Source: Bradyrhizobium genosp. L (GTDB lineage: Bacteria > Pseudomonadota > Alphaproteobacteria > Rhizobiales > Xanthobacteraceae). From it: 64,000 nt of DNA. The notes below the pieces were generated by a model that made no database searches, was not told the origin of the DNA, and saw nothing but the letters and a program-made list of their open reading frames with translations. The DNA lies in contig NZ_CP061378.1 in the NCBI RefSeq assembly GCF_015624485.1, positions 1,178,001 to 1,242,000 of the forward strand. The letters run 5' to 3'. Positions 8,210 to 26,379 of this stretch are shown here, in pieces. The position numbers were made by a program, and so were the translations under genes. Every line of letters starts with the position of its first letter. Within the stretch, counting starts at the first letter, position 1.

Positions 8210-8251
8210 TTATCTCCAGGAGAGCGCCGGACGGCGGGTCGTTAGAGTGGA

Positions 8252-8641: not shown

Positions 8642-8736
8642 GTTCGGACCTCGACTGAGAAAGGGCTTTGCGGAGGGGTTTACGGGCATTCTTGACGCCC
8701 GTGCAACCCCTCGGATTCCAATCCTGACGGCTTGCG

Positions 8737-8904
8737 TCAGCGGGAGTGCTGGGTGGCGTCCGGCGGGGACGGCGGCGTGCCGGTCCAGCGCCGCATCAGG
8801 ATGTCCCTGACGATCATGACCGAGATCAGCAGCAGCATGATCGTGGTGACGAGGCCGCGCCAACGCGGGCGTGCGCCATCGATGGCAGGAAGGTTCTCCG
8901 ACAT
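8737..8904 (-). CDS. 55-residue single-pass membrane protein in the polyamine cluster
   Basis: A short open frame starting MSENLPAIDG and ending at a TGA (8739-8737). Residues 18-33 (LVTTIMLLLISVMIVRDI) form one membrane segment, with Arg residues on both sides and a Pro-rich tail. It begins 10 bases after the upstream acetyltransferase gene ends and precedes ridA by 95 bases, so it sits inside the ODC-acetyltransferase-RidA-Hss transcript. Third positions are G/C-rich as in its neighbours. Function is unknown. The tight spacing and clear transmembrane segment are the reasons to call it; database conservation has not been checked. Confidence 0.65.
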   Translation of the reverse strand: MSENLPAIDGARPRWRGLVTTIMLLLISVMIVRDILMRRWTGTPPSPPDATQHSR

Positions 8905-8914
8905 GGCGCCGCCC

Positions 8915-9517: not shown

Positions 9518-9647
9518 GGCACGTCAGTCCTCGCTTGCAACGGCATGTCGAGCGCCGCGGCAAGCGTCGTTCAGAGAATCAAAAATGATCGGGAAGGAGC
9601 CGGCGGGGCCGGCTCCCGGTTCAGTCAGGCCTCAGATCGGAGGCAGT

Positions 9648-10790: not shown

Positions 10791-10949
10791 AGCACTCTCC
10801 CGGTCCCAGCGACGGGATCCGTATCAACGTGACGTCGGGTGAGAGCGCTCCGGCCACATCGCGCGATGGAGGCGCGTTGAGGCCAAAAAACTCAGACCAG
10901 ACTGTGCTGCCGTGGATTGGTTGGGAGAGTTTCCCGCCCGCACACCTGG

Positions 10950-11280
10950 CAATGAAGGACAAGCCTTTTCAGTAGCCCGCGCCGGCGTTGGACTGCCGGT
11001 AGAGACCAAAAAAGCCCGATCCGTCGTTGCTTTAAGTCGCGTCCCCCGTTGAGAGCGGGGTGCGCCGGTTCGCCTCCGGCTGCCAGTCACGGTTGCAAAG
11101 AGTGGTGAGACCTTCAACGGCATCCCTGGAGAGGGAGGCTGGCCGCCTCGTGTCCTGATGGACGTAAGCGACCCTCGGTTCTTCCACCCCTTGGCGGCTG
11201 TCCGGCCTCTTGTCCGGATACCTACCGACTGACACACGACCACAGGCACGTGCGAAATTGGGCAAGGCAGGAAATAAGTC
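10950..11280 (-). promoter_or_regulatory. Structured 5' leader of ornithine decarboxylase, candidate speF-type RNA element
   Basis: The untranslated stretch before the decarboxylase holds at least five GC-rich hairpins, written here on the + strand: 10982-10999 (CCGGC/GCCGG), 11043-11060 (CCCCG/CGGGG), 11064-11080 (GCCGG/CCGGC), 11134-11149 (GGAGGC/GCCTC) and 11201-11218 (TCCGG/CCGGA). Alphaproteobacterial ornithine decarboxylase genes are known to carry a conserved structured leader (the speF motif of Rfam), and position and complexity agree. A 96-codon frame opening with TTG at 11322 runs through it and stops at 11032, just before the last hairpins; it may be a leader ORF or chance. Boundaries are approximate. 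Confidence 0.5.
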
Positions 11281-11457
11281 TTTTGAATTGGCTTCGCAAG
11301 ATTTTTTTTGCGATCGCGACAAATTTCCCTAACGCGTGCTTGCGATCTCGCGCGCAGCACGTGTGAGAACGTCGAGAAGATGAACGGCTGTTAAGATTGC
11401 CTAACGAAGCGTGTGCGTTTTAGCCCTGTGCCGCAGCGCTATCTTGAATCGCTGCCG

Positions 11458-11718
11458 TCACGCGCGACGCGTGAACGGCTCGACGCGCTGAGCTGCGCGG
11501 ACGAAGGCGATCATGATCAGGACGCCGATGCCGAACAGCACCGCCTGCAGGATGTGCGCGCCGGTGTCGTCGAGCCCGAACAGGATTGCGAGCGCCCAGC
11601 CGCCGGCGAACGCCGCGCCGAACACCTCCGCGCCGATCAGGATCGCTGCCGAGAGCACGGTGACGACGCTCGGCCAGGCGATGGTGCGGTTGGCGGACGT
11701 GGTGGGCTGCATGGTCAT
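11458..11718 (-). CDS. Small two-pass membrane protein, unknown function
   Basis: An 86-residue protein starting at ATG 11718 (ATG 11712, two codons in, is an alternative), with AGGAC 8 bases upstream as ribosome-binding site. Hydrophobic segments lie at about residues 16-50 (two closely spaced or one long, with GAEVFGAAFAGG between) and 57-73 (HILQAVLFGIGVLIMIAF). The tail is basic. It faces the M3 peptidase gene across about 130 bases, so the two share a divergent promoter region. I recognise no family; similar short membrane proteins are common in rhizobia. Confidence 0.65.
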   Translation of the reverse strand: MTMQPTTSANRTIAWPSVVTVLSAAILIGAEVFGAAFAGGWALAILFGLDDTGAHILQAVLFGIGVLIMIAFVRAAQRVEPFTRRA

Positions 11719-11848
11719 GAAAACTGTCCTGTTCAGGGGGCGCAATGTCTCCGAAAAGGGCCCATCTATCAAGCGTAAAAGGCCCAAAAATGCCGTATCG
11801 CGTGATATAGATTGGGCCATATTTTGAAGGCAAAAAGCGGGATATTCG

Positions 11849-13936
11849 ATGTCAGAAACCAGTGCACCGGCCGCTGTCCAGAATTTGGCCAACCCCCTCC
11901 TCAAAGCGTGGCAGACGCCGTTCGAGACGCCGCCTTTCGCCGAGATCGAGCCGGAGCATTTCCTCCCCGCCTTCGAGCAGGCCTTCGCCGACCATTCGGC
12001 CGAGGTCGCCGCGATCACCCATGATCCGGCGCTGCCCGACTTCGACAACACCATCACGGCGCTGGAGCGCTCCGGCAAGCTTTTGTCGAAGGTCGCGGCC
12101 GTGTTCTACGACCTGGTCTCGGCGCACTCCAACCCCAAGATCCTGGAGATCGACAAGGAAGTGTCGCTCCGGATGGCGCGGCACTGGAATCCGATCATGA
12201 TGAACGCCGTGCTGTTTGGCCGCATCGCCATGCTGCACGAGAAGCGCGCCTCGCTCGGCCTGACCGGCGAGCAGCTCCGGCTGCTGGAGCGGACCTACAC
12301 CCGCTTCCACCGTGCCGGCGCCGGGCTCGACGACACCGCAAAAACACGGATGGCCGAGATCAATGAGCGTCTCGCCCATCTCGGCACCTCCTTCAGCCAC
12401 CATCTGCTCGGCGACGAGCAGGACTGGTCGATGGAGCTCGGCGAGGACGACCGCGCCGGCCTCTCCGACACCTTCGTGGCGGCCGCCAAGGCTGCGGCGG
12501 AACAGCGCGGCAAGCCGGGCAAGGCGATCGTGACGTTGTCGCGCTCCTCGGTCGAGCCGTTCCTGCAGAGCTCTGAAAGCCGCGACCTGCGCGAGAAGGT
12601 CTACAAGGCATTCACCGCCCGCGGTGACAATGGCAACGCCAACGACAACAACGCGACCATCGTGGAGATCCTCGCGCTCCGCGAGGAGAGCGCCAAGATC
12701 CTGGGCTTCCCGACCTACGCGGCCTACCGGCTCGAGGACTCCATGGCCAAGACGCCCGAGGCGGTGCGCGGCCTGCTGGAGCGGGTCTGGAAACCGGCGC
12801 GGGCCCGGGCGCTCGCCGACCGCGACGCGCTGCAGGCGCTGATCGCGGAAGAGGGCGGCAATTTCACGCTGGCGCCGTGGGACTGGCGCTATTACGCCGA
12901 GAAGCTGCGCCAGCGGCGCGCCAATTTCGACGATGCGGCGATCAAGCCGTATCTGGTGCTCGACCACATGATCGAGGCGGCCTTCGACTGCGCCACCCGC
13001 CTGTTCGGCGTCACCTTCGCCGAGCGCAAGGACGTCCCGGTCTGGCATCCGGACGTCCGGGTCTGGGAGGTCAGGGGGCGCGACGGCAAGCACAAGGCGC
13101 TGTTCTACGGCGACTACTTCGCCCGGCCTTCGAAACGTTCCGGCGCCTGGATGACCTCGCTGCGCGACCAGCAGAAGCTCGACCACGACGTCGCGCCGCT
13201 GGTGCTGAACGTCTGCAACTTCGCCAAGGGCGCCGACGGTGCACCGTCGCTGCTGTCGCCGGACGATGCGCGGACCCTGTTCCACGAGTTCGGTCATGGC
13301 CTGCACGGCATGATGTCCGATGTGACCTATCCGTCGCTATCGGGGACTTCCGTGTTCACCGATTTCGTCGAGCTGCCCTCGCAGCTCTACGAACATTGGC
13401 AGGAGCGGCCGGAGGTGCTGCAGCGCTTCGCCCGGCACTACCAGACCGGCGAGCCGCTGCCCGACGATCTGCTCAAACGCTTCCTCGCCGCGCGCAAGTT
13501 CAACCAGGGCTTTGCCACCGTGGAGTTCGTCTCCTCGGCGCTGGTCGACCTCGAATTCCACACCCAGCCGGCTTCGGCCAGCCGCGACGTCCGTGCCTTC
13601 GAGAAGCAGGAGCTGGAGAAGATCGGCATGCCCGCGGAAATCTCGCTGCGGCACCGGCCGACCCAGTTCGGCCACATCTTCTCCGGTGACCACTATGCTT
13701 CCGGCTATTACAGCTACATGTGGTCGGAGGTGATGGACGCCGACGCGTTCGGCGCGTTCGAGGAAGCCGGCGACATCTTCGATCCCGCCACCGCCAAGCG
13801 GCTGCTCGACGACATCTATTCGTCGGGCGGCTCGCGCGACCCCGAGGAGGCCTATGTCGCCTTCCGCGGCCGCGAGCCCGAGCCGGACGCGCTGCTGCGC
13901 CGTCGCGGGCTGCTCGAGACGCCCGAGGCGGCTTGA
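11849..13936 (+). CDS. dcp: M3 family zinc metallopeptidase (peptidyl-dipeptidase Dcp / oligopeptidase A type)
   Basis: A 695-residue thimet-oligopeptidase-family enzyme that degrades short peptides in the cytoplasm; no signal peptide is present. The zinc motif is His479-Glu-Phe-Gly-His483 (LFHEFGHGLHG), with the third ligand in the following SVFTDFVELPSQ helix. The RSGAWMTSLRDQ stretch before the active site and the C-terminal HYASGYYSYMWSEVMDADAF are typical of Dcp and OpdA. Length (about 680-700) is normal. The start ATG 11849 follows a low-GC leader (about 11780-11840) likely to hold its promoter. The DUF1007 gene begins 2 bases after the stop, hinting at a shared transcript. Dcp versus OpdA cannot be settled from motifs alone. 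Confidence 0.93.
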   Translation: MSETSAPAAVQNLANPLLKAWQTPFETPPFAEIEPEHFLPAFEQAFADHSAEVAAITHDPALPDFDNTITALERSGKLLSKVAAVFYDLVSAHSNPKILEIDKEVSLRMARHWNPIMMNAVLFGRIAMLHEKRASLGLTGEQLRLLERTYTRFHRAGAGLDDTAKTRMAEINERLAHLGTSFSHHLLGDEQDWSMELGEDDRAGLSDTFVAAAKAAAEQRGKPGKAIVTLSRSSVEPFLQSSESRDLREKVYKAFTARGDNGNANDNNATIVEILALREESAKILGFPTYAAYRLEDSMAKTPEAVRGLLERVWKPARARALADRDALQALIAEEGGNFTLAPWDWRYYAEKLRQRRANFDDAAIKPYLVLDHMIEAAFDCATRLFGVTFAERKDVPVWHPDVRVWEVRGRDGKHKALFYGDYFARPSKRSGAWMTSLRDQQKLDHDVAPLVLNVCNFAKGADGAPSLLSPDDARTLFHEFGHGLHGMMSDVTYPSLSGTSVFTDFVELPSQLYEHWQERPEVLQRFARHYQTGEPLPDDLLKRFLAARKFNQGFATVEFVSSALVDLEFHTQPASASRDVRAFEKQELEKIGMPAEISLRHRPTQFGHIFSGDHYASGYYSYMWSEVMDADAFGAFEEAGDIFDPATAKRLLDDIYSSGGSRDPEEAYVAFRGREPEPDALLRRRGLLETPEAA

Positions 13937-13938
13937 CG

Positions 13939-14583
13939 GTGCGGCCGGTGCTGGACCGCCTGATCGCCTGCTTCGTGCTGGTGGCTGCAGCGCTCGGCGC
14001 GGCGGCGGCGGAAGCCCATCCGCATGTCTGGATCACCGCCCGGAGCGAGCTGATCTATGCGCCTGACGGCACCATCACCGGGGTTCGCCACGCCTGGACC
14101 TTCGACGACATGTTCTCGTCCTACGCGCTGCAGGGCATCGAGACCAAGGTGAAGGGCGCCTATAGCCGCGAGGAGCTGGCGCCGCTGGCCCAGACCAATG
14201 TCGAGTCGCTGAAGGAATACGCCTACTTCACCTTCGCCAAGGGCGACGGCAAGAAGCAGAAATTCACCGAGCCGGTCGACTATTTCCTCGAATACAAGGA
14301 TACGGCGCTGACCTTGCACTTCACGTTGCCGCTGAAGACCCCGTTCAAGGCCAAGCAGCTTTCGCTCGAAGTGTTCGACCCGAGCTACTTCATCGACTTC
14401 CAATACGCCGACAAGGACCCGATCAAGCTGGTCGGCGCGTCCGCCGACTGCAAGATGGAGTTCCAGCGGCCGAACGATGGCACCGTTGCCGCGCAGAAGC
14501 TCGGCGAGCAGAACTTCCTCGACGGCAGCGCCGGCAATTTCGCGATGATGTTTGCCAACAAGATCACGGTGGACTGCCCATGA
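13939..14583 (+). CDS. DUF1007 family secreted protein, partner of nickel/cobalt exporter
   Basis: A 214-residue protein starting at GTG 13939. An N-terminal signal peptide (cleavage near AAAEA-HP) exposes a mature N-terminus beginning HPHVWI, a hallmark of DUF1007 and a possible metal-binding site. The body contains the family's TFDDMFSSY and YFTFAKGDG stretches. Genes of this family commonly precede NicO/RcnA-type nickel/cobalt transporters, and here the stop codon overlaps the transporter's ATG by four bases (ATGA), so translation is coupled. A periplasmic role in metal binding or delivery to the exporter is inferred from this pairing; no biochemical function is established to my knowledge. 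Confidence 0.88.
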   Translation: MRPVLDRLIACFVLVAAALGAAAAEAHPHVWITARSELIYAPDGTITGVRHAWTFDDMFSSYALQGIETKVKGAYSREELAPLAQTNVESLKEYAYFTFAKGDGKKQKFTEPVDYFLEYKDTALTLHFTLPLKTPFKAKQLSLEVFDPSYFIDFQYADKDPIKLVGASADCKMEFQRPNDGTVAAQKLGEQNFLDGSAGNFAMMFANKITVDCP

Positions 14584-15707
14584 CGCCAATCGTCTCCCGC
14601 ATGACGCGCGGCCTCGCCATGTCAGCGGCCGTGCTGGCCGTTGTCGCAATCCTCGACGGCACCCTCCACGCGCTGCTGGCGCAAAATCCGTTCGGCGCGC
14701 CGCGCACCGCACCCGAGCCGCAGGGCGGCGTGATCGGCTGGCTCCTGGCCAAGCAGTCGGAGTTTTACCGCGAGATGTCGGGAACCATCCGCGCCGCCAA
14801 GTCGGACGGCTCGGCGGTCTGGACGCTGCTTGCGATCTCCTTTGCCTACGGCATCTTCCACGCCGCCGGGCCCGGCCACGGCAAGGCGGTGATCTCGTCC
14901 TATCTGGTTGCCAATCGCGAGACCGCGCGGCGCGGCATCGTGCTGTCGTTTGCCTCGGCGCTGATGCAGTCGCTGGTCGCGGTCGTGATCGTCGGGATCT
15001 GCGCCTGGCTGCTCAATGCCACGGCGAAGACGATGTGCGGGGCGGAGAAGGCGGTCGAGATCGCAAGCTACGCGCTGATCGCGCTGTTCGGCGCCCGGCT
15101 GGTCTGGGTCAAGGGCGGCGGCTTCATGCGGGCGCTGCAACTGCCGCGGCCGGCGCTGGCAATGGCCGGCGCGCCCCACGCCGCGCACGATCATCATGAC
15201 CACGCCGCGCATGAGCCTGATCATCACCATCGTCATGCCCATGACGAGCACGATCATCATCATCACGATCATGGCCATGACCATGATCACGGCGACGATC
15301 CGCACCACGTCCACGACGAGCACTGCGGCCATTCGCACGGGCCGACACCGGCCGAGCTCGCCGGCCCCGGCGGCTGGCGGCGTGGCCTGGGTGCGATCCT
15401 GACCGTCGGCATCCGGCCGTGCTCGGGCGCGATCCTGGTCTTGGTGTTCGCGCTGGCGCAGGGCCTGTTCTGGGCCGGCATCGCCGCGACCTTCGTGATG
15501 GGGCTCGGTACTGCGATCACGGTGGCGACGATTGCCATCGTCGCGGTCTCGGCGCGAGGCATGGCGGAGAAGCTGAGCGGGGCGCGCGACGGCGGCGGCA
15601 TGCTGGTCATGCGCGGCCTGGAATTCGCAGCCGCCGGCCTGGTGTTGCTGTTCGGGCTGGGGCTGCTGTTCGGCTACGTCGCGGCGGAGCGGGCGACGTG
15701 TCTTTAG
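14580..15707 (+). CDS. NicO family nickel/cobalt transporter with His-rich loop (RcnA-like)
   Basis: A 375-residue inner-membrane protein. Diagnostic motifs are HAAGPGHGK (residues 94-102) in an early membrane helix and GIRPCSGAI in a later one, both hallmarks of the NicO/RcnA family. Between them, at about residues 200-255, is a very His- and Asp-rich cytoplasmic loop, expected to bind Ni2+ or Co2+ before export. It is translationally coupled to the DUF1007 gene. The C-terminus ends at 15707 where the AT-richer island begins. No rcnR-type regulator is adjacent, so control is unknown. Direction (export) follows from RcnA characterisation; import has been proposed for some relatives. Confidence 0.92.
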   Translation: MTPIVSRMTRGLAMSAAVLAVVAILDGTLHALLAQNPFGAPRTAPEPQGGVIGWLLAKQSEFYREMSGTIRAAKSDGSAVWTLLAISFAYGIFHAAGPGHGKAVISSYLVANRETARRGIVLSFASALMQSLVAVVIVGICAWLLNATAKTMCGAEKAVEIASYALIALFGARLVWVKGGGFMRALQLPRPALAMAGAPHAAHDHHDHAAHEPDHHHRHAHDEHDHHHHDHGHDHDHGDDPHHVHDEHCGHSHGPTPAELAGPGGWRRGLGAILTVGIRPCSGAILVLVFALAQGLFWAGIAATFVMGLGTAITVATIAIVAVSARGMAEKLSGARDGGGMLVMRGLEFAAAGLVLLFGLGLLFGYVAAERATCL

Positions 15708-16144
15708 AATCTGAACCAAGGAATAAATTCAGTTGATTCCGTGGGCGCCTGCTCCATGCCAAAATGGCGGTACCAAACCCGACGGAACGTTGGCCATCCG
15801 TCTGGACGACGCCAAGGTAGCCCCTGCGGGCCAGTCTCTGATCGATTGCTACGATTGTCCATCCGCTGATCGCTTGATGTTTGTCTCTCCACCGTGACAT
15901 GCTTAATGATTGGCAATACCAGACTGCGCCGACGTCTTGGGTGATCGAAGAGCACAGCGTTTGGAGAATGCCTCTAACGCATTTTCGCTCGATCAGCGCG
16001 GCATGATGCAGGATCGACTTTCGTGGAGAAAGAAAGTGATGAGGAGATCGGGTTGTCGGCGGGAGCATTGATGCTTCGTCGTGAGGAGGCATGCTGCATT
16101 GAGAAGTGAGGGGAAACGACAGTTTCTCAAAGGAGCGCAGTTGT
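15708..16144. other. AT-richer spacer at left edge of island; possible gene remnant
   Basis: These 437 bases separate the NicO gene from the island genes and already show the lower GC of the island. On the minus strand an open frame (16092 down into the NicO 3' end) reads protein-like in its middle (VWYCQSLSMSRWRDK) but lacks a convincing start or domain, so it may be a decayed gene. On the plus strand an AAAGGAG site 10 bases before ATG 16145 serves the first island gene. No tRNA, integrase or direct repeat was found. Confidence 0.4.
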
Positions 16145-19100
16145 ATGATAAAAACCTTGAATGAACTTGATGACGCGCTACTTCGGTGCCTTCGTTCGCG
16201 CAGGGTTGCGCTGTGGATTGAGGGTACGGTTCAAAGTGGCATCCTGAATGAAGCTGCAGGCCTCCCTTGGGTCAAGATTTGGAGCTCAGTATCTCGTGCA
16301 TCTCTCAGCTCGGCCCTTGCACATGCCAAAAATCGAAAGCCGCTATTCTTCGATCGACCAGACGACGCTCCGCAAGCGTGGAACGAGTCGGAATACATTG
16401 TAGTCTACGATGTTCAATCGAGCACAACTTCAGATCGGTTAGAGCTGGTTAGGCGACAGGCTTGGAACGAAGGCCTTAAGCAGCTCATCCAAGGCTGGGA
16501 TGGGATCATTTTGATCCTGACAGAGCGCATGGCGTCACTTCAACTAGGACGCGATATTGAGTTAATCTCCGCCCTCGCGCCGGCAAGTATAATCGTGCTG
16601 CAGCATGGCTTGCTGTCAGGAGCGAGTGCAGACGGGCTAACTAATCTCGTGACTTGGCAGGGCCCTTTGCTCGATTTTGTCAGAGAGGCCCTAAGCGTAT
16701 GCTCTGAGCAAGAGAAAGTAGACGTACTTGACCTGAAACACGCATCAGGTGTGCGAATCGAAGGAGCCGATTTTGACGTTATTGCGGGCTCATGGACCCT
16801 ACTCCGTCGAGGGCACTTGGCCCCGGCCTCTCGTGTTTCCCAGAAAGACTTTGACCACTTCCTTTCAGGTACAATCGGGACCTGGGAGGTTGGTTATTGG
16901 CAATTGATGAGTGCAGGAATCTCACACGACCGAGGTGGAATTGCTAACGAGGGAACAACTGCAGGCGACGCGAACTCTGTTGACCCTGTCGCCCTTGCGG
17001 TTGATGCGATTAAGGCCCTCGATTTCGCTGATCGCGATCCGTCCCAACAGGTGGACGTTCTCACGTTGGCAGCGGAGTCGGGCAGCGGCTGCACAACACT
17101 GCTCCGGCAACTCGCACTAGCTGTTGCCCGCGCTGGCTATCCTACTTTCATATCCCAACCAAACGTTCGCGATCTTTCGACCGATTCGCTGGCTGATGCG
17201 GTTGTTGCGGTGCAGTCTGCATGGGCTGCTGCACGCGATCGCAGCGCCAAGGGTAGCGGGCACGGCACCCTACCAGTCTGTATCATTGTTGACGCTGACG
17301 CAGAGCTTCAATCGGACCGCTCCCGGTTGATGTCGAAGCTTCAGTCACTCGGGCGCAAGGTGTATGTTGTCCGCGCTTTAACTCGAAGTCGCTCCGAAAT
17401 GGCGGAGTTGCCGACGGCGCTTCATCTAAAATCGGAAGCAACTGAAAATCAAATTTTAGCCCTAGGTCGACACCTTTCGGCATTTGGTTCTCGCTACGGT
17501 CTTGTTCCTCTTCCGTCCGACGACGAGTGGCATTCTTACTATCGGAGTTTCAAAGGTGTTCAGGCGGGGTTCCACGGAGAAATTGTCACGCCACCGCTGT
17601 TTTTGGTGGGGCTCCATATCTTCGTTAAGGATCGTGTGCGGGATGAACGGAGCTTGGAGCAATACCTATATCGAAAATGGCTGGAAATTGATGCTCCATC
17701 TGGGAAGGAGCTAGTCCGCGTCCTCGCTGCGGCTGGGAGTTATGGCTTGGCAGTGCCCTTCGAGACCGCCGCCAGAGTCGCCGAATTGAGACCAGCGCTG
17801 TTTGGGCAGCTTCAGGAGAATGAGGACCGAGCGCTAGACGTCTTTTGTCAATGGACGCGTCCACCAACGAATCAATCTGACTGGGCCGTTGCGATACGCC
17901 ATCAAGCGCTGGGGGTATTGCTTGGTAGGGTACTATTCCCTGATCAAGCGACGGCTCCATACAGCGCGTTGCTGCCGGTCCTGAGCACATTGACTTCGAA
18001 GGAAGAGGATCGGTGGTTCGCTGACAACCTTGCATATCGGCTCGGTCAGCGTTTTGGTAGCTATTCGGCTCCATTCTCGCTTGATGTGGATACCGCAAAT
18101 CAAAAGGCCGCGCGCGCGATTTTTGCGTCGTTTCCAAAAGAGCTTCGAAGTAGCAGTCGGACTATTCTGCATCACCATGCGCGTTACTACATCAAAGTCC
18201 TAAAAGCATGCATTGAGGCGATAGCTGAGCCAGAGCACACGATCGAGCCAAGATCCGCCACTATTCGCTTGGCCGAAGCTGCGGCCGACGAGGCTCAGGC
18301 GATTCTCGATGTGGCACTTGATTTGCCAGAGCAGAACGATCGACGGAGCAGTCTGCTAACAACGCTCTCCGCGGCGCTCGGGACGCTCTCACGAGCGTTG
18401 TTGTCTGTCGGGTCAAAGTCATACGCGAACCGATCCCTAAAATACTTTTGGGATTCGATAGATGCTGCGCAAGAAGCCGTCAATTTTGATGGGGGCAATG
18501 GGCATGCGAACTTCAATTTAATTGATACGATTCAAAAGGCCCTCCAGAATTCTTTGCCTTTGGCCGTGTCCCAGGAGTTGGAGCTCTTCGAGGTTGCCGA
18601 TAATTGTCTTGTCACTCTCCAGCAGTTGCACAGCACAAAGCGATGGAGCAATGTCGATGATCTCGGCGGACAGGAGTCCGTCGGAGGGCTGATAGTTGAG
18701 CAATTGGCGCTGGCAAAACGCCTTTCGGCGCGTACGAAGTCGTCAATTGGCCCGGCGTTTTTCGATAGTCCGGCGGGATTGATGATCAGAATTCGGGAGG
18801 TGGTTGGCCCAGATGACCTATCTCAAGCGTTTCGAGACCCAAAGCGCGCGCTAACTTTGAGAAAGTTGCGGGGATCGTTTGAAGATCATGAACTAAGGGC
18901 CGGACGTGCTCTCCAATACCTCTACAAGCTCTATCTCCACGATCCAATTGGACGTCTAAATTTTGCCCATCGTCGCGAGTTGTTGCGATTACTCAAAGCA
19001 TGTTCGGTCGAGGAATATGAACCATATCGACATGATGAGGCGACTTTGTCATGTCAGCTTGGGGAGTTCGAACCAGCTGAAACCTTGTTTAACCAATTGC

Positions 19101-19399
19101 GCGAGGCGCGACAGGCGGAGCCATCAAGGTGGTACTGGCACAATGAGAGAGTGCTCATTGAGGTCGTAGAGGGCGCGGCTCGGCCAAGGGAGTTCGCTAT
19201 TGAGGTTGTTGATGCGGCTAACGGCTGGGGCCGTATCAAAGGGCTCGACAGAATACGCATCAAAATTCAGCCGAATCAGTTCTCTGGCCTCTCTAAGGGA
19301 AGTTTTCATAGAGCTTGCGTTCGCTTCCGAACGGGTGGCTTGCAAGCAGTGCGCGATCGCTTCGCGAGAGACGATCTTTTGGAAATGGGGCTTGCCTGA
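16145..19399 (+). CDS. Large STAND-like P-loop protein with TPR-like tail, candidate defence/conflict protein
   Basis: A 1084-residue protein from ATG 16145 (AAAGGAG site; GTG 16106 is a weaker start). Residues 1-300 are alpha/beta with Rossmann-like strands (YIVVYDVQ, GIILILTE, ASIIVLQHG) but fit no domain I recognise. Next comes a P-loop NTPase: Walker A is GSGCTT (313-318), with Cys where Lys is normal, and Walker B is CIIVDAD (379-385). Residues from about 550 on are helical, with a TPR-like repeat near 970-987 (QLGEFEPAETLFNQL). This sensor/NTPase/repeat plan resembles STAND immune proteins, some of which lack the Walker Lys. GC content and codon use differ from the flanks. Its stop overlaps the next gene by one base (TGATG). 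Function is inference. Confidence 0.7.
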   Translation: MIKTLNELDDALLRCLRSRRVALWIEGTVQSGILNEAAGLPWVKIWSSVSRASLSSALAHAKNRKPLFFDRPDDAPQAWNESEYIVVYDVQSSTTSDRLELVRRQAWNEGLKQLIQGWDGIILILTERMASLQLGRDIELISALAPASIIVLQHGLLSGASADGLTNLVTWQGPLLDFVREALSVCSEQEKVDVLDLKHASGVRIEGADFDVIAGSWTLLRRGHLAPASRVSQKDFDHFLSGTIGTWEVGYWQLMSAGISHDRGGIANEGTTAGDANSVDPVALAVDAIKALDFADRDPSQQVDVLTLAAESGSGCTTLLRQLALAVARAGYPTFISQPNVRDLSTDSLADAVVAVQSAWAAARDRSAKGSGHGTLPVCIIVDADAELQSDRSRLMSKLQSLGRKVYVVRALTRSRSEMAELPTALHLKSEATENQILALGRHLSAFGSRYGLVPLPSDDEWHSYYRSFKGVQAGFHGEIVTPPLFLVGLHIFVKDRVRDERSLEQYLYRKWLEIDAPSGKELVRVLAAAGSYGLAVPFETAARVAELRPALFGQLQENEDRALDVFCQWTRPPTNQSDWAVAIRHQALGVLLGRVLFPDQATAPYSALLPVLSTLTSKEEDRWFADNLAYRLGQRFGSYSAPFSLDVDTANQKAARAIFASFPKELRSSSRTILHHHARYYIKVLKACIEAIAEPEHTIEPRSATIRLAEAAADEAQAILDVALDLPEQNDRRSSLLTTLSAALGTLSRALLSVGSKSYANRSLKYFWDSIDAAQEAVNFDGGNGHANFNLIDTIQKALQNSLPLAVSQELELFEVADNCLVTLQQLHSTKRWSNVDDLGGQESVGGLIVEQLALAKRLSARTKSSIGPAFFDSPAGLMIRIREVVGPDDLSQAFRDPKRALTLRKLRGSFEDHELRAGRALQYLYKLYLHDPIGRLNFAHRRELLRLLKACSVEEYEPYRHDEATLSCQLGEFEPAETLFNQLREARQAEPSRWYWHNERVLIEVVEGAARPREFAIEVVDAANGWGRIKGLDRIRIKIQPNQFSGLSKGSFHRACVRFRTGGLQAVRDRFARDDLLEMGLA

Positions 19400-20784
19400 T
19401 GGTCACAGTGGCCGAAGCAGCTCTCCATTTTTATCAACGGTTGAGCGAACAGCTTCTTCAGGAACCAGCACTTGCCACTCAAGGCGTTTTGATGCTGTGC
19501 GACAAGGATTGGGCTTTGCCGGACCAAGACATTCGCGGTGTGGCGAAGGCGTTGGTACGACGAATTCATCCAAGCGCAATCGAGCCAGGTTTCTTGTTGG
19601 GTTGGAAGGAGCTTGGCGGGCCGAGCCGCGATGGCCTGGTCTTGGATGTGCGTAGCGATACTCATGCTCCCCCGGAAAGGGATGCTCGCCGAGCGATTGA
19701 GGCTGCAGGTCCTGGGGTCGTTCTCATTTCCAACGATAGACTGACTGGCATCGGATTGCTGATCCTACCATTTCAGCGCAACGAAGCAGTATACGATGCG
19801 GTTCCGCTGGCTCTGAAGTCACTTGAGGAGTTCTGCGGAGGTCGACTTGATGTCGTTGCTTCCCGTCGGTTCATGAGAGGAGGGGTGTTGGCTGCCTTTG
19901 AGGTGGGGTTATTTCCGCCGGCGCAGCGACAAATAGCGGCGGCGTTTGATGAAGATCAGGTTTTGTCTCTTTGCAGGACGCTGTGTGGCACCTGGGTTTA
20001 CCGAGGGCGTCAAGTTACGCCCGAGCACGCAGCGAAATGGGCTGAGCAGTTCAGGGGAGCGAGACTAATCGGTGAGGCAATGGATGTCCTGAAGTATTTG
20101 AACTCTGACGGCTTTCTCACCAGAAACTACATCGTCGATTGCATTAGAGAACAGTACCAGTCCGTCCTGCGAAAATACGAGACTGTGCAGGCGATATCTG
20201 TTCAGAGAATTCAGAAGAGTGAGCATCACCTAGTGTACGATCTTCGCTTCTTGCCAAGGGAAATTGTTAGCTTCGCCGAAGCGATTGAAATCCATAAACG
20301 GGATGTGACGCTTGTTTGCTTCGATGACGTTGTTGGCAGCGGAGGTACATTCATTGATGCGCTATTCGGTGGTCTTGCGGGCGTGCCGGTAGAAAGGGTC
20401 AGTGAGTGGCTGCTAGACGGAAATAATCAAATAGTCGTGGTGTGTGCGATTGCAGGCGAGGAGGGAAAGCGTCGAGTCGAGGAGCATGAGCATGCTCATG
20501 GTCGCGTAGAGATATTTGCTCATAGGACAATAAGGAATGGAGAGGCCACGTTTCACGAAAGGTCTCGAATATTCTCGAAGAACTCGAGTGGAGAGAAATT
20601 TATGGAATTCTGCCGAAAGGTAGGAGACGACTTATATCCGAAGGCACCTCTAGGGTATGGCGACTCTCGATGGTGCATAGCAACAGAATACAATGCGCCA
20701 AACAATTCATTACCGGTTATATTCGCAAGAGGCAATGCGACCAGGAAGTGGACGCCACTCTTTGAACGAATCGAGCCGACTTAA
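19399..20784 (+). CDS. Phosphoribosyltransferase-like protein (PRTase-CE type), partner of the STAND-like protein
   Basis: A 461-residue protein starting at ATG 19399 inside the stop of the previous gene. Residues 1-190 are of unknown type. Around 213-255 is a helical segment (KWAEQFRGARLIGEAMDVLKYL), followed by an alpha/beta domain whose motif VCFDDVVGSGGT (306-317) is the PRPP-loop signature of type I phosphoribosyltransferases: two Asp, then a Gly/Ser loop ending in Thr. The helical segment before a DD-x-x-GSG-x-T loop is what I recall of PRTase-CE domains predicted in prokaryotic conflict systems. No nucleobase-salvage enzyme has this layout. Translational coupling to an NTPase-repeat protein supports a two-gene system. 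The reaction is unknown; the family call needs a profile search. Confidence 0.65.
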   Translation: MVTVAEAALHFYQRLSEQLLQEPALATQGVLMLCDKDWALPDQDIRGVAKALVRRIHPSAIEPGFLLGWKELGGPSRDGLVLDVRSDTHAPPERDARRAIEAAGPGVVLISNDRLTGIGLLILPFQRNEAVYDAVPLALKSLEEFCGGRLDVVASRRFMRGGVLAAFEVGLFPPAQRQIAAAFDEDQVLSLCRTLCGTWVYRGRQVTPEHAAKWAEQFRGARLIGEAMDVLKYLNSDGFLTRNYIVDCIREQYQSVLRKYETVQAISVQRIQKSEHHLVYDLRFLPREIVSFAEAIEIHKRDVTLVCFDDVVGSGGTFIDALFGGLAGVPVERVSEWLLDGNNQIVVVCAIAGEEGKRRVEEHEHAHGRVEIFAHRTIRNGEATFHERSRIFSKNSSGEKFMEFCRKVGDDLYPKAPLGYGDSRWCIATEYNAPNNSLPVIFARGNATRKWTPLFERIEPT

Positions 20785-20839: not shown

Positions 20840-21238
20840 TCACCCCCTCAAATACCCCCGGATCATCGGTAGCAGGAAGATCGCGATGTTGATCGCAAAA
20901 CCGATGCTCCAGAGGATCGAGCGCAAGGTCGGGCGGTTGCCGATATAGGTGAAGACGTAGGCGATGCGCACGATCAGGAACAGCACGGCCAGCTCGTCGA
21001 TCAGCCGCAGCGGGCCGATGCGGAATTCGGCGAGCAGCACCGCGAAGGCGAAGAACGGGAACGCCTCGATCCCGTTCTGATGGGCGCCGAGTGCCCGCGA
21101 GCGGATCGGGTCGTCGTAGAAATCGGGATCGCGCGGGCGGGAATTGTCGAAGCGGCGGAAGCCGATCCATTTCACCGATGCGATCGTCAGGAGCGACAGC
21201 ATCAGCGTCCCGAAGACGCACCATTCGGCGACCGTCAT
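20840..21238 (-). CDS. MAPEG family membrane protein
   Basis: A 132-residue protein with four hydrophobic segments (about 7-24, 58-78, 80-98 and 107-127), the topology of MAPEG proteins (membrane-associated eicosanoid/glutathione metabolism). The motif RALGAHQNGIEAFPFFAFAV matches the conserved R-x-x-x-A-H-x-N-x-x-E segment of the family, and YIGNRPTLRSILWS the C-terminal helix. Bacterial members can have glutathione transferase or peroxidase activity, but this copy's substrate is unknown. It is convergent with the island and divergent from hemH. The ATG at 21238 is the only plausible start. Confidence 0.88.
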   Translation of the reverse strand: MTVAEWCVFGTLMLSLLTIASVKWIGFRRFDNSRPRDPDFYDDPIRSRALGAHQNGIEAFPFFAFAVLLAEFRIGPLRLIDELAVLFLIVRIAYVFTYIGNRPTLRSILWSIGFAINIAIFLLPMIRGYLRG

Positions 21239-21252
21239 GGTTCCTCCACAGA

Positions 21253-21298
21253 GCGTTTTCGAGCGAAGTGGTCCCGGTTCGCGTCAAGAAAACGCGTC
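21253..21298 (+). repeat. Palindromic intergenic repeat, family A copy 2
   Basis: A 46-base copy with inverted ends (GCGTTTTC/GAAAACGC) and the shared interior GAGCGAAGTGG and CGGTTCGCGT. It lies between the divergent MAPEG and hemH genes. Confidence 0.85.
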
Positions 21299-21388
21299 AA
21301 GACAAAGCTTGATCGAGAACGTAGCCAACCGGCACTCGCCTTGACAAGCCAGCGGCAACGCGCGAAGCCCACCCCAGAGAACACCAGC

Positions 21389-22423
21389 ATGAGCACGGTC
21401 ATTCCCTTCGAGAGCGCGAAGCCGGCAGCAAGCGCCAAGCCGGAGCGCGTCGGCGTGCTGCTGGTCAATCTCGGCACGCCGGATACCGCGGATGCCAAGG
21501 GCGTGCGGGTCTACCTGAAGGAATTCCTGTCCGATCCGCGGGTGATCGAGAACCAGGGGCTGCTCTGGAAGCTGATCCTCACCGGCATTCTGTGCATCCG
21601 GCCCGCCCGCAAAGCACGCGACTACCAGAAGATCTGGAACGTCGAGAAGAACGAGTCGCCGCTGAAGACGATCACGCGCGCGCAGGCCGAGAAGCTGGCG
21701 GCCGCTATTGCCGATCACGACCACGTGGTGGTCGACTGGGCGATGCGCTATGGCAACCCGTCGATCGCCTCCCGGGTGGCGGCGCTTGCCGCGCAGGGCT
21801 GCGGCCGCCTGCTGGTGGTGCCGCTCTATCCGCAATATTCCGCAGCGACCTCGGCGACCGTCTGCGACGAGGTATTTCGCGCGCTGGCCGGCATGCGCGA
21901 CCAGCCGATCCTGCGGGTGACGCCGCCTTATTATGATGACCCCGATTACATCGCGGCGCTGGCAGACTCGATCGACGCGCATCTTGCGACGCTGCCGTTC
22001 CAGCCCGAGATCATCCTCGCCTCGTTCCACGGCATGCCGAAGGCCTACGTCGACAAGGGCGATCCCTATCAGGCGCAGTGCATCGCGACCACGGACGCGC
22101 TGCGCAAGCGGCTCGGGCTCGAAGCGTCTAAGCTGGTCCTCACGTTCCAGTCGCGCTTCGGCAACGCCGAGTGGCTGCAGCCCTATACCGACAAGACCGT
22201 GGAGCGGCTGGCGAAAGAGGGCGTGAAACGGATCGCCGTGGTCACGCCGGGCTTCTCCGCCGATTGCCTGGAGACGCTGGAAGAGATCGCGCAGGAGAAC
22301 GCCGAAATCTTCCGGCACAATGGCGGCGAAGCATTCGCCGCGATCCCCTGCCTCAACGACAGCGATGGCGGCATGGACGTGATCCGCCAGCTCGTGCTGC
22401 GCGAGCTGCAAGGCTGGATCTAA
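21389..22423 (+). CDS. hemH: Ferrochelatase
   Basis: A 344-residue enzyme inserting Fe2+ into protoporphyrin IX to make haem, the last step of the protoporphyrin route. The catalytic His is His214 (SFHGMPKAY) and the acidic partner Glu295 (FSADCLETLEEI); their spacing of 81 matches well-studied ferrochelatases (His183/Glu264 in Bacillus). The N-terminus VGVLLVNLGTPDT and the SRFGNAEWLQPYT stretch are diagnostic. The ATG at 21389 begins a short extension before this motif. The last codons (GGC TGG ATC TAA) form the first unit of a 15-base tandem repeat. It appears to be monocistronic, with a family A repeat upstream. Confidence 0.96.
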   Translation: MSTVIPFESAKPAASAKPERVGVLLVNLGTPDTADAKGVRVYLKEFLSDPRVIENQGLLWKLILTGILCIRPARKARDYQKIWNVEKNESPLKTITRAQAEKLAAAIADHDHVVVDWAMRYGNPSIASRVAALAAQGCGRLLVVPLYPQYSAATSATVCDEVFRALAGMRDQPILRVTPPYYDDPDYIAALADSIDAHLATLPFQPEIILASFHGMPKAYVDKGDPYQAQCIATTDALRKRLGLEASKLVLTFQSRFGNAEWLQPYTDKTVERLAKEGVKRIAVVTPGFSADCLETLEEIAQENAEIFRHNGGEAFAAIPCLNDSDGGMDVIRQLVLRELQGWI

Positions 22424-22466
22424 GAAGGTTGGATCTAAGAAGGCTGGATTTAAGAAGGCTGGATCT
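22410..22466 (+). repeat. 15-base tandem repeat over the hemH stop codon
   Basis: Nearly four copies of AAGGCTGGATCTAAG occur in tandem, with single-base changes between copies. Because the unit is 15 bases, each copy carries an in-frame stop (TAA, TAA, TAA, TGA), so hemH ends at the first of four serial stops. Confidence 0.9.
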
Positions 22467-22644
22467 GATTGTTAACGATCCGTGACACCAGACACGGATG
22501 GCGCGTTCAGTCTTGGACCGTCTGGTATCCCGCAAGACGGCCTCCTACGTATCAGGTAGAACAACGGCCGGCTGAACCGGCGTCGCGGTCCTGCCGACCA
22601 ACCCACGACCGCGCCCCTGCGACGGTCGGGCCCTGGAGGACTCC

Positions 22645-23646
22645 ATGACTGGTTTCGATATTTTCGCGATCGCGCTTGTTCTTCTCGTCATCATTACGCT
22701 GTTCGCGGGCGTCAAGACCGTCCCGCAGGGCTATGACTGGACCATCGAGCGGTTCGGCAAATACACCCGCACGCTGTCGCCCGGCCTCAATATCATCGTG
22801 CCCTATTTCGATCGCATCGGGCGCAAGATCAACATGATGGAGCAGGTGATCAACATCCCCGAGCAGGAGGTGATCTCCAAGGACAACGCCACCGTGACGG
22901 TGGACGGCGTCGCCTTCTTCCAGGTGTTCGACGCCGCCAAGGCGAGCTACGAGGTCGCCAATCTGACGCAGGCGATCACCGTGCTGACCATGACCAACAT
23001 CCGCTCGGTGATGGGTTCGATGGATCTCGACCAGGTGCTGTCGCATCGCGACGAGATCAACGAGCGGCTGTTGCGCGTGGTCGACGCCGCGGTGTCGCCG
23101 TGGGGCGTCAAGGTCAACCGCATCGAGATCAAGGACATCGTGCCGCCGGCCGACCTGGTCGAGGCGATGGGCCGGCAGATGAAGGCCGAGCGGGTCAAGC
23201 GCGCCGACATCCTGCAGGCGGAAGGCCAGCGGCAATCCGAGATCCTGCGCGCCGAGGGCGCCAAGCAGGGCCAGATCCTGCAGGCCGAGGGCCGCAAGGA
23301 AGCCGCCTTCCGCGATGCCGAGGCGCGCGAACGCTCCGCCGAGGCCGAGGCCAAGGCGACGCAGATGGTCTCCGAGGCCATTTCCAAGGGCGACGTCGCC
23401 GCGCTGAACTATTTTATCGCCGACAAATACATCAAGGCGTTCGGGCAACTGGCCGACTCGCCGAACCAGAAAGTCCTGATGCTGCCGATCGAGGCGACCA
23501 GCATCCTCGGTTCGCTCGCCGGCATCGGCGAGATCGCCAAGGCAACCTTTGGCGAGAGCGCCGCGTCTGCCCAGGCAGCCGCACGGCGCGGCTCGGTGCC
23601 ATCAGCCGGTCCCGCGGCGCCGCCGCCTGTGCCGCCGAGGACCTGA
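22645..23646 (+). CDS. SPFH domain protein, stomatin/QmcA-like
   Basis: A 333-residue membrane-anchored protein. Residues 1-22 are a hydrophobic anchor, followed by an SPFH/band 7 domain ([24 protein letters not shown], about 25-190, is the stomatin signature) and a long charged coiled coil (about 190-260) rich in Ala, Glu and Gln that drives oligomerisation. The C-terminus is Pro/Ala-rich. It lies 40 bases upstream of an NfeD gene, the classic SPFH-NfeD pairing in which the two form a membrane-organising complex, sometimes linked to protease control. The start at ATG 22645 has a GGAGGA site 7 bases before it. Confidence 0.93.
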
Positions 23647-23686
23647 GGCGTGGTAGCGTCACGCCCGCAATCATAGGGGTCCTGTC

Positions 23687-24133
23687 ATGGCCGAGATGTT
23701 TTCGACGTTGGGCACCTGGAACTGGCTGATCTTCGGCTTCATCCTGATGGCGCTGGAGCTCGCCGCGCCCGGCGTGTTTTTGTTCTGGCTCGGGCTTGCG
23801 GCGCTGCTGGTCGGGCTGCTGTCGTTCGCCTTCACGCCGGCCTGGCAAACCCAGCTCCTGATGTTTGCGGTGTTCGCCGCAGCGGCAGTGCCGGCGTGGC
23901 GGCATTTCGCCCGAAGCGCGACCGAGGTGAGCAAGACCAACCCGTTCCTCAATCGCCGCAACCAGGCCCTGATCGGCCGCGAGTTCACGCTGGAGAAGCC
24001 GATCATCGATGGCGCCGGCACGGTGCGGATCGACGACACGGTCTGGCGGGTCGCCGGCCCCGACGCGCCTGCCGGCAGCCGCGTCAAGGTCGTCAGCGCC
24101 GACGGCGCCAACCTGACGGTGGCGGTGGCCTAA
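23687..24133 (+). CDS. NfeD family membrane protein
   Basis: A 148-residue protein with two or three hydrophobic segments in residues 12-75, then a soluble OB-fold C-terminal domain (about 90-148; LIGREFTLEKPI, DDTVWRVAGPDAPAGSRVKVV) typical of NfeD1b proteins. It lacks the ClpP-like protease part of long NfeD. Its position 40 bases after a stomatin-like gene is the usual arrangement, and the partners are thought to interact. The product is an inner-membrane protein; the physiological role is poorly known. Confidence 0.92.
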   Translation: MAEMFSTLGTWNWLIFGFILMALELAAPGVFLFWLGLAALLVGLLSFAFTPAWQTQLLMFAVFAAAAVPAWRHFARSATEVSKTNPFLNRRNQALIGREFTLEKPIIDGAGTVRIDDTVWRVAGPDAPAGSRVKVVSADGANLTVAVA

Positions 24134-24146
24134 CTTGCTCTATCCT

Positions 24147-24473
24147 TCAGCGCCTGCTCCAGCGTTCGGCGAAACGATTGAGCGGCATGAACGACTCGCT
24201 AAGCTCCCTGCCCAGCGCGGTCAGCCGATAGCCGTCCTCCGTCAATTCGACGAACCCTGCCTCGCGCAGCTCGGTCAGCCGCGTCTGCAGGATCGTCGGT
24301 GAGGCCTCGTCGCAGGCACTGCGCAGCGCGCGCGAGGTCAGCGCGCTCTCGCGCAATTCCCAGGTGATCCGCAGCGTCCAGCGGCGCCCGAGCAGGTCGA
24401 GCAGCGCCATGATCGGACGTCCCGTGCGCGAACCGCGGACGCTGTGCTTTGCGGTCGGAACCGGCTTCGGCAT
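24147..24473 (-). CDS. HxlR family transcriptional regulator
   Basis: A 108-residue winged-helix DNA-binding protein. The HxlR signature is visible: GRRWTLRITWELRESALTSRALRSACDEASPTILQTRLTEL (abbreviated) covers the recognition helices, followed by the wing (GFVELTEDGYRLTALGREL). Start ATG 24473 is chosen for its AAGGAGA site; the longer frame upstream has no protein character and would cross the operators. It is divergent from the CMD-family gene; two palindromes between them probably bind this regulator, giving control of its own gene and the neighbour. HxlR members often sense aldehydes or redox-active electrophiles; the signal here is unknown. The usual N-terminal sensing Cys is absent, with only one Cys (ACDEA) in view. 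Confidence 0.88.
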   Translation of the reverse strand: MPKPVPTAKHSVRGSRTGRPIMALLDLLGRRWTLRITWELRESALTSRALRSACDEASPTILQTRLTELREAGFVELTEDGYRLTALGRELSESFMPLNRFAERWSRR

Positions 24474-24494
24474 GCGGAATTCTCCTTGCGCAAC

Positions 24495-24533
24495 GCTACA
24501 GATATTGTAGCGTGTTGCTACGGTAATTGTAGC
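24495..24533. promoter_or_regulatory. Double inverted-repeat operator between hxlR and CMD gene
   Basis: Two near-identical 17-base palindromes lie in the 74-base divergent gap: GCTACAGATATTGTAGC (24495-24511, perfect arms) and GCTACGGTAATTGTAGC (24517-24533). Their centres are 22 bases apart, two helical turns, so two dimers could bind on one face of the DNA. The HxlR protein is the obvious binder. Confidence 0.75.
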
Positions 24534-24547
24534 AGTGAGGACAAGCC

Positions 24548-25087
24548 ATGTCACGCATCGCGCCGCTGGCGCCGCCCTATGCGGCGGACGTTCAACAGCA
24601 TTTCGACCGCATCATGCGCGGCAAGCCGCCGCTGCTGCTGTTTCGCGTGATGGCCGGCCATGCGCGCGCCTGGGAGAAGTTTCGCGGCGGCGGCCTGCTC
24701 GATCGCGGGCCGCTCTCCCTGCGCCAGCGCGAGATCGTGATCGACCGCACCTGTGCGCTCAATGCCTGCGAATATGAATGGGGCGTGCATGTCACAGCGT
24801 TCGGCGCGGCTGCGACTTTTTCAGAGGCGCAGGTCCATGCCACCGTGCACAGCAGCGCGGACGCAGCGTGCTGGTCGCCGGCCGAGCAGGCGATGTTGGC
24901 TGCGGTCGATGGGCTGCATGCGCGCGCGACGCTCGACGACGCCGAGTTCGCGGCGCTGTCGGCGCATTACGACGAGGATCAGATCCTGGAGATCATTTTG
25001 CTGTGCGGCTTCTACCGCACGGTGTCGTATCTCGCCAACGCGCTGGCGTTGCCGCTGGAGGCGGATGCGGCAAGGTTTCCGAAGTGA
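24548..25087 (+). CDS. Carboxymuconolactone decarboxylase-family protein
   Basis: A 179-residue all-helical protein of the CMD/AhpD-like superfamily. The core LSLRQREIVIDRTCALNACEYEWGVHV (abbreviated motif near residues 58-84) has the Arg-Glu, Cys and His positions of the family, but the Cys pair is C-x4-C, not the redox C-x-x-C of AhpD, so thiol-peroxidase activity is doubtful. It faces the HxlR regulator across a double operator and is probably its target. The reaction is unknown; a role against an electrophilic compound would suit HxlR control but is speculative. Confidence 0.85.
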   Translation: MSRIAPLAPPYAADVQQHFDRIMRGKPPLLLFRVMAGHARAWEKFRGGGLLDRGPLSLRQREIVIDRTCALNACEYEWGVHVTAFGAAATFSEAQVHATVHSSADAACWSPAEQAMLAAVDGLHARATLDDAEFAALSAHYDEDQILEIILLCGFYRTVSYLANALALPLEADAARFPK

Positions 25088-25091
25088 GATT

Positions 25092-25171
25092 GTAGGGTGG
25101 GCAAAGCGCAGCGTGCCCACCACTCTTGCACTGCTCGTGATGGTGGGCACGCTTCGCTTTGCCCACCCTAC
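25092..25171. repeat. Long perfect inverted repeat, family C
   Basis: Arms of about 30 bases (GTAGGGTGGGCAAAGCGCAG... and its complement ending CCCACCCTAC) enclose a loop of about 20 bases, so the transcript would form a strong hairpin. It sits between the convergent CMD-family and kdsD genes and may end transcription from both sides. Confidence 0.85.
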
Positions 25172-25183
25172 GGATCGTGATCG

Positions 25184-26191
25184 TTACGCCACGCCGGCGC
25201 GCAGCAGATCGTGCAGATGGATGATCCCGACTGGCTTCTTCGCGTCTGTTACGATCAGCGTCGTGATCTTCGATGCGTTGAGCAGTTCCAGTGCTTCGCC
25301 GGCGAGCATGTCGCGGCTGATCGTCTTCGGCGTCTTGGTCATGACCTCGTCGACCGAGAGCGTGAGCAGCTCGGGGCGCATCTGCCGGCGCAGATCGCCG
25401 TCGGTGACGATGCCCACGATATGGCCGCGGTCATCGACGATGCCGACACAGCCAAATCCCTTCGAAGTCATCTCGACCAGCGCATCCGACATTTTGGTGC
25501 CGAGCGGCTTCAAGGGCACCGCGTCACCGGAATGCATGAGGTCGCCGGTGGTTTTCAGCAGCGCGCCGAGCTTGCCGCCCGGATGCAGCACGCTGAAATC
25601 GGTCGAGGTGAAGCCGCGGCCCTCGAGCAGCGCGATCGCCAGCGCATCGCCGAGCGCCAGCATCATCAGCGTCGAGGTGGTCGGCGCGAGATTATGCGGG
25701 CAGGCCTCGCGCGCCTTCGGCAAGGTCAGCTGCACGTCGGCGGCCTTGCTCAGCGTCGAATCCTTGTCGGCGGTCATCGCGATCAGGGGAATGCTGAAGC
25801 GTGCCGCATAGGCGATCAGGTTGCGCATCTCCGCCTGCTCGCCGGACCACGACAGCGCGAAGATCGCATCATCTGACGTGATCATGCCGAGATCGCCATG
25901 GCTGGCTTCGGCGGAGTGCACGAAGAACGCCGGCGTCCCGGTCGAGGCGAAGGTCGCGGCGATCTTGCGGCCGATATGGCCCGACTTGCCGAGCCCGGTG
26001 ACGATCACGCGCCCTTTCAGCTTGCGGATCAGCTCGGCGGCCGCCGCAAACGAGGTCGCAAGGTCGGATTTGAGCGCAGCGGACAGCGCGGCGATGCCGC
26101 TGGCTTCGGCATCGAGGGTGCGGAGCGCCGATTGAACAGCGCCGTCGTCGCGGCCGGATGATTTGGTCATCAGCGGTTTCGGTTTGGCCAT
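25184..26191 (-). CDS. kdsD: Arabinose-5-phosphate isomerase (KpsF/GutQ/KdsD family)
   Basis: A 335-residue enzyme interconverting ribulose-5-phosphate and arabinose-5-phosphate, the first step of Kdo synthesis for lipopolysaccharide. The N-terminal SIS domain (about 30-200) contains VIVTGLGKSGHIGRKIA and FVHSAEASHGDLGMI; two CBS domains follow (about 215-335; LMHSGDAVP, VMTKTPKTI). ATG 26191 is preferred over the GTG nine codons upstream, since homologues start close to it. The neighbouring gene, on the opposite strand, encodes an outer-membrane barrel protein, in keeping with an envelope locus. KpsF and GutQ paralogues have the same reaction and cannot be told apart here. Confidence 0.93.
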   Translation of the reverse strand: MAKPKPLMTKSSGRDDGAVQSALRTLDAEASGIAALSAALKSDLATSFAAAAELIRKLKGRVIVTGLGKSGHIGRKIAATFASTGTPAFFVHSAEASHGDLGMITSDDAIFALSWSGEQAEMRNLIAYAARFSIPLIAMTADKDSTLSKAADVQLTLPKAREACPHNLAPTTSTLMMLALGDALAIALLEGRGFTSTDFSVLHPGGKLGALLKTTGDLMHSGDAVPLKPLGTKMSDALVEMTSKGFGCVGIVDDRGHIVGIVTDGDLRRQMRPELLTLSVDEVMTKTPKTISRDMLAGEALELLNASKITTLIVTDAKKPVGIIHLHDLLRAGVA

Positions 26192-26379
26192 ACTGGATTC
26201 CAGGGGAGGGTTTTGCACCCGGGCGTCTCCCTTAGCACGGTCGCTTCAACGAAGCGACGCAGGGCGGCCAATCCTCAACGGCCCATTAACCATAATTGTT
26301 TTAACTCCATTAACGACGATTTCCGCCGCAGTGCGCGGCGGGTCGTCAAGCGTATGAATTCGTTGGGGTATTTTCCATC

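Follow-up and report, generated by a model that had tools for sequence, protein, structure and literature searches.

A predicted two-gene immune module pairing a STAND protein of SAMD9-like plan with a PRTase-CE protein in Bradyrhizobium

A gene pair inserted between exporter and MAPEG genes

The 64,000-nucleotide stretch of Bradyrhizobium DNA analysed here (the window) is contained in a 7.40-Mb single-contig genome and carries two adjacent genes at 16145..20784, which we call A and B (Table 1). Both reading frames are intact and overlap in the sequence TGATG, as the initial annotation had described. It had also described the pair as lower in GC than its flanks, and we measured a GC content of 0.534 for A and B together, compared with 0.659 for positions 8001-15700, 0.652 for positions 20851-28000 and 0.644 for the whole window; sliding windows agree with these values. 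By eye, the names nickel exporter and MAPEG fit the flanking genes. Upstream of gene A, window positions 15710-16144 form a low-GC stretch of about 400 bp, and an antisense open reading frame (ORF) at 15607-16092 has no Pfam match. No convincing flanking repeats were found around the pair, and the single tRNA of the window is located at 50.6 kb.

Table 1. Features of the gene pair, in window positions
Feature	Position	Strand	Remarks
Gene A	16145..19399	+	1084 aa; ATG at 16145, stop 19397-19399; sirtuin-fold domain, nSTAND_NTPase7, helical (TPR-like) repeats, C-terminal beta-rich domain
Sirtuin-fold N-terminal domain of A	16145..16714	+	Structure match; profile link to Pfam iSirtuin group
STAND NTPase domain of A	17027..17785	+	PF24404, residues 295-547 of A
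Degenerate Walker A, GSGCTT	17081..17098	+	Lys replaced by Cys
Helical repeat (TPR-like) array, putative sensor	18014..19126	+	Predicted structure
C-terminal beta-rich domain of A	19130..19396	+	Strands at low pLDDT; OB/cold-shock-like only by eye
Gene B	19399..20784	+	461 aa; PRTase-CE protein, predicted effector; ATG at 19399, stop codon ends at 20784
N-terminal alpha/beta region of B, no family assigned	19399..19998	+	Secondary structure; outside the PRTase-CE match
PRTase-fold domain of B	20035..20769	+	
PRPP/phosphate-binding loop, DDVVGSGGT	20323..20349	+	Starts at residue 309 of B

A MAPEG match is present in all 98 genomes of the genus that were searched. We took 30 MAPEG loci with 1.5-kb flanks, namely the window's own and 29 others. 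An exporter gene lies within the flank at 12 of the 29 loci, in 10 cases at a distance of 48-371 bp from the MAPEG gene, and this spacing includes seven of the eight best MAPEG matches, the eighth locus being incomplete. The site is empty in near relatives, and the exporter-MAPEG distance in the window is 5.1 kb. For 15 of the genomes, stretches of 12-16 kb were taken, representing 13 of the 17 loci with no exporter in reach and two with a longer gap; the exporter was located 0.8-10.2 kb from the MAPEG gene in 12 of them and not found in three. Across the genus, the exporter-MAPEG interval (L057-L071, L091-L105) is a variable insertion site, whose length runs from 48 bp to about 10 kb and whose cargo differs between genomes. 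The gap ORFs of relatives resemble by eye KaiC, efflux, transposase and thioesterase genes, among others, and look metabolic or transposon-like. The A-B pair is thus a lineage-specific insert at this variable site, and no defence island is visible around it.

Both genes are rare. Full-length B occurs in one of 146 genus genomes, two others having weak partial matches. A occurs in two of 385 class genomes and one of 397 order genomes. Each of these counts includes the genome from which the window is taken. Among 349 genomes of the phylum, window included, matches over the cut-off were observed in two for nSTAND7 and in 16 for PRTase-CE. Reading the ORFs of 13-24 kb, we recognised no defence genes beside the pair. 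A tblastn comparison of 13 defence-type proteins (seven RTs, two ORC-like proteins, two from an Hma-like cluster, one GajA-like protein and a 236-aa ORF product described below) with the whole window gave no match better than E 0.068, the best value for the seven type III-A RTs being E 0.22. A location in a defence island, for which the initial annotation had proposed a survey, is not supported here, and no relatives of these retron RT, ORC, Hma and GajA genes were found in the window. A retron identity for the pair was rejected, there being no RT relative in the window.

Domain architecture of gene A

Gene A matches nSTAND_NTPase7 (PF24404) with an E-value of 7.5e-24 and 84.9 bits against a gathering score of 27; a PF25199 match (E 1.1e-6) is under the Pfam cut-off. 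Relatives of A match over its full length. PF24404 matches all 18 aligned members of the A family at E <= 1 and is over the cut-off in all 10 that are shown individually. The P-loop of the initial annotation is present as a P-loop-like stretch, GSGCTT, but it is not canonical because its lysine is replaced by cysteine. None of the 18 family members has a lysine at this position, which is occupied by cysteine in 12, glycine in three, alanine in two and isoleucine in one. A canonical STAND NTPase was ruled out for A, as the P-loop lysine is missing.

A structure match gives the N-terminus of A a sirtuin fold, and a profile comparison relates it to the Pfam "inactive sirtuin" group; P0014 and P0025 were left out of the profile comparison because their N-termini are missing. 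The Pfam iSirtuin family itself (PF24403) is matched in six of the 18 family members at E <= 1 and is not matched in the window protein. We call the sirtuin-fold domain of A inactive because sirtuin catalytic motifs are not recognisable in it by eye. The structure predicted for A is of low confidence (mean pLDDT 60) and contains a helical array in the tail. TPR proteins are among its structure matches, at Z values that helical repeats may reach by chance, and the Pfam TPR match is weak, being found in two of the 18 family members and not in the window protein. These observations are the support for the TPR-like tail initially annotated. Profile searches of PDB sequences with A gave no informative relative and reached E 1.9e-4 with P-loop chains of bacterial tyrosine kinases. 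Of 61 stretches found for gene A in viral contigs, none was confirmed, and plasmid records gave no match.

With Foldseek, the top matches of A are five human SAMD9 entries (six chains, E 2.7e-12 to 4.7e-10), followed by NSF at 1.9e-4. In VIA-align, SAMD9 (12.5), SIR2/HerA (12.5), DSR2 (12.4) and Avs5 (11.9) are tied, and the whole-chain superposition of A and SAMD9 is poor, with an rmsd of about 30 A. No SAMD9 chain is present among the PDB sequence matches at E <= 10 of the A profiles A2, A4 and A5. According to a 2017 paper (PMC5445408), the SAMD9 core consists of an AlbA domain, a variant Sir2-like domain, a STAND-like P-loop domain with glycine for lysine (GGT/S), TPRs and an OB fold of the cold-shock type. 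The family also has members in bacteria, many of which lack AlbA, and some members have lost that domain. Avs5, too, is reported to resemble SAMD9 (PMC12931631). In the A family, the GGT signature is present in the distant members P0023-P0025 only, the window protein having cysteine, and Pfam searches found no AlbA domain in A or in the family members searched. When nine A-tail sequences (L089 left out) were compared with eight cold-shock domains (two identical) in hhalign, the score was 14.5, which did not rise above the shuffles, as five of 100 column shuffles reached it. These comparisons suggest that A has a SAMD9-like plan, which we propose without claiming membership of that family. The initial annotation had mentioned neither the sirtuin fold of the N-terminus, nor the missing P-loop lysine, nor the resemblance in plan to SAMD9.

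Gene B and the partners of both genes

Gene B matches PRTase-CE (PF24390) with an E-value of 1.5e-31 and 110.7 bits against a gathering score of 27, and the PADLOC family PRTase_III-A at 9.1e-28. The STAND and PRTase calls of the initial annotation therefore both score over the Pfam cut-off, and the loop that it had noted in the second gene is in place, with residues D309, D310, G313, S314 and G315 invariant in all nine aligned homologues (window included). By Foldseek and VIA-align, the fold of B matches uracil and orotate PRTases, which are base-salvage enzymes; this is a statement about fold, not function. Foldseek also places dynein, processome and AAA+ chains (probability about 0.5-0.6, the two best E-values included) among the uracil PRTases, and we discounted these because VIA-align puts PRTases on top. 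PDB sequences contained no informative relative of B, and the N-terminal regions of A and B were judged not to be homologous (hhalign probability 1.1). None of 84 stretches found for B in genome contigs was confirmed, phage records gave no match, and plasmid records gave three matches with about 26% identity over 60%.

A 2023 NAR paper that named PRTase-CE reportedly proposed it as a nucleotide-targeting effector; to our knowledge, PRTase-CE chemistry has so far only been predicted. Judged from its residues, the intact PRPP loop of B is consistent with the proposed role. PRTases also appear in three publications: a system composed of DprA and a PRTase gives protection from T7 and lambda (PMC9122126), type III retrons typically have a PRTase as their effector (PMC12548924), and a figure legend names PRTase among validated DefensePredictor systems (PMC13092281). 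We infer that the last of these is DS32 of NCBIfam, the label "DS-32" being absent from the main text.

The reading that we favour, and believe a little more readily than we doubt, is that A and B form a two-gene immune module in which A would sense infection and activate B, a probable nucleotide-targeting effector. Within the same module, B might transfer phosphoribosyl from PRPP to a macromolecule, be it protein, RNA or DNA, rather than destroy free nucleotides. The intact PRPP-type loop and PRTase fold would suit this, and the extra N-terminal region of about 200 residues could bind such a target, but we found no precedent and in fold B is closest to base-salvage PRTases, so that we regard a macromolecular target as unlikely. 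That fold match would also be expected if B were a housekeeping enzyme of nucleotide salvage and A an ATPase unrelated to it. However, B falls in PRTase-CE, has no Pfam or NCBIfam salvage family over the cut-off, a match that the initial annotation had named as refuting its reading, and is missing as a full-length protein from 145 of the 146 genus genomes; we rejected a salvage enzyme for B on these grounds and consider such a pairing hardly credible. The nucleotide-targeting effector remains our preferred reading of B.

Six A-B pairs were seen, window included, and these are not single genes in core loci, the other situation that the initial annotation had named as refuting its reading. Three are on one DNA (the window, L039 and L088), and the other three are inferred from A and B matches on equally sized contigs (9562, 20371 and 6472). 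Pairing is kept down to 34% identity to the window for A and 26% for B. In the Tateyamaria contig (L039), B may start either with a TTG inside the stop of A or with an ATG just after it. The identity matrices of A and B correlate with r = 0.99 over 15 comparisons, which shows co-inheritance of the two genes and not contact. A and B are a real, conserved, accessory two-gene module. We found no description of this pair in the literature consulted on PRTase-CE, nSTAND, PRTase retrons and bacterial SAMD9, although an earlier one may exist.

The overlap of the two genes would also fit a toxin-antitoxin-like arrangement in which A restrains B as a standing toxin and loss of A frees it, and the published retron model is one of a sequestered toxic effector. 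STAND-type proteins, however, activate effectors rather than sequester them, and A is a large STAND-type protein that stands ahead of B in the operon. We consider restraint of B by A quite unlikely and retain activation of B by A as the preferred reading.

A partner gene was seen or inferred for seven of the 18 A-family members. In G325, the stretch L089:9778-13761 holds an iSirtuin-nSTAND7 gene with the Walker A sequence GAGATT, and helicase and restriction-like ORFs are nearby. This A-family gene is followed by an unrelated 236-aa ORF that has no Pfam, PADLOC or PDB match, and the description "Toprim-like" is therefore by eye only. The two genes are possibly a sister system with another effector.

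The PRTase-CE search of the phylum returned 29 matches, 13 of them under the cut-off, and neighbours were counted at the 15 over-cut-off loci besides the window. PRTase-CE adjoins RT genes at eight of these loci, Hma-like genes at two, a divergent GajA-like gene at one (L043) and ORC-CDC6-like genes at four. All eight RT neighbours match RVT_1, and RT_III-A is the best PADLOC family in all seven that were run. At L041:4671-16691 and at L042, the PRTase-CE ORF has an HTH-helicase on one side and a NADAR plus HmaB/HmaC-like cluster on the other; L041 was tested by family, whereas at L042 only the helicase was tested and the rest was assigned by matching ORF starts. These two loci are possibly an expanded Hma-type system. 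The ORC-CDC6-like AAA+ genes are at L044, L049, L052 and L053, with a neighbouring gene that has HAD-like matches at L049 and L053 and also a weak SIS match at L049. ORC-CDC6-like genes have been linked to defence. Partners thus vary on both the PRTase-CE and the nSTAND7 side, as is expected of a sensor-plus-effector module. The sensor-effector module of the initial annotation gains from the conservation of the pair and the exchange of partners elsewhere, but not from the site, where no defence island is visible.

With no defence neighbours seen at the site, the role of A and B could be regulatory or metabolic and have nothing to do with phage; B would then sense PRPP or nucleotides and A would be a signalling ATPase; some PRTase-fold proteins, PurR and PyrR, are indeed regulators. 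The near absence of the pair from the genus, its deviant composition and the neighbours at the 15 other PRTase-CE loci argue against this, and we judge it distinctly improbable. A defence function of A and B, as predicted from these comparisons, is likely.

Proposed mechanism and relation to known systems

In the immune module that we favour, A would be both sensor and switch, its helical tail, perhaps together with the C-terminal beta domain, detecting an infection signal. The lysine-less STAND domain may change state by nucleotide binding rather than rapid hydrolysis, and A would oligomerise with nucleotide bound, in a state for which the P-loop lysine is dispensable, with the sirtuin-fold domain serving as a putative scaffold rather than an enzyme. 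B would act as an effector in trans, activated in a complex by assembled A. Its PRTase fold would most likely break or rebuild the base-sugar bond of a nucleotide, an activity that could starve phage replication or stop growth.

We find the sensor architecture of A to be the most interesting part of the module. In humans, SAMD9 has both antiviral and disease roles, and its lysine-less STAND switch is poorly understood. A compact bacterial protein of SAMD9-like plan whose effector is encoded separately would make it possible to study the switch independently of its output and to test it against phages. The pair also links the PRTase-CE effector, which in this survey mostly adjoins retrons and AAA+ genes, with a sensor of the STAND type. 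As a tentative generalisation, which we hold to be possible rather than probable, the SAMD9 core (dead sirtuin, lysine-less STAND, repeats) may serve bacteria as an interchangeable sensor driving effectors that have genes of their own, in this pair a PRTase that destroys nucleotides and in other cases a different small protein, and animal SAMD9 may be the same switch with the effector fused on.

Among known systems, type III-A retrons have the effector domain in common with B, as reflected in its PADLOC match, but the sensor here is a STAND protein and B has an extra N-terminal region. The anti-phage protein DS32_1 (NCBIfam NF053875) is related to B over residues 205-329 at 28.7 bits, far under the family cut-off of 250. 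Proteins that combine iSirtuin and nSTAND_NTPase7 (PF24403 and PF24404) share with A the nSTAND7 match, the lysine-less P-loop and profile-related N-termini; the partner of A is PRTase-CE, whereas a 236-aa ORF lies beside the iSirtuin-nSTAND7 gene of L089. Avs5 (SIR2-STAND) carries its effector, an active sirtuin, within the one chain, while the sirtuin of A looks dead and the likely effector is the second gene, B. With the SAMD9 core, A shares three of five parts in the order dead sirtuin, lysine-less STAND and helical repeats; unlike the SAMD9 family, it has no AlbA or SAM domain ahead of the sirtuin domain, and its likely effector is encoded by a separate gene.
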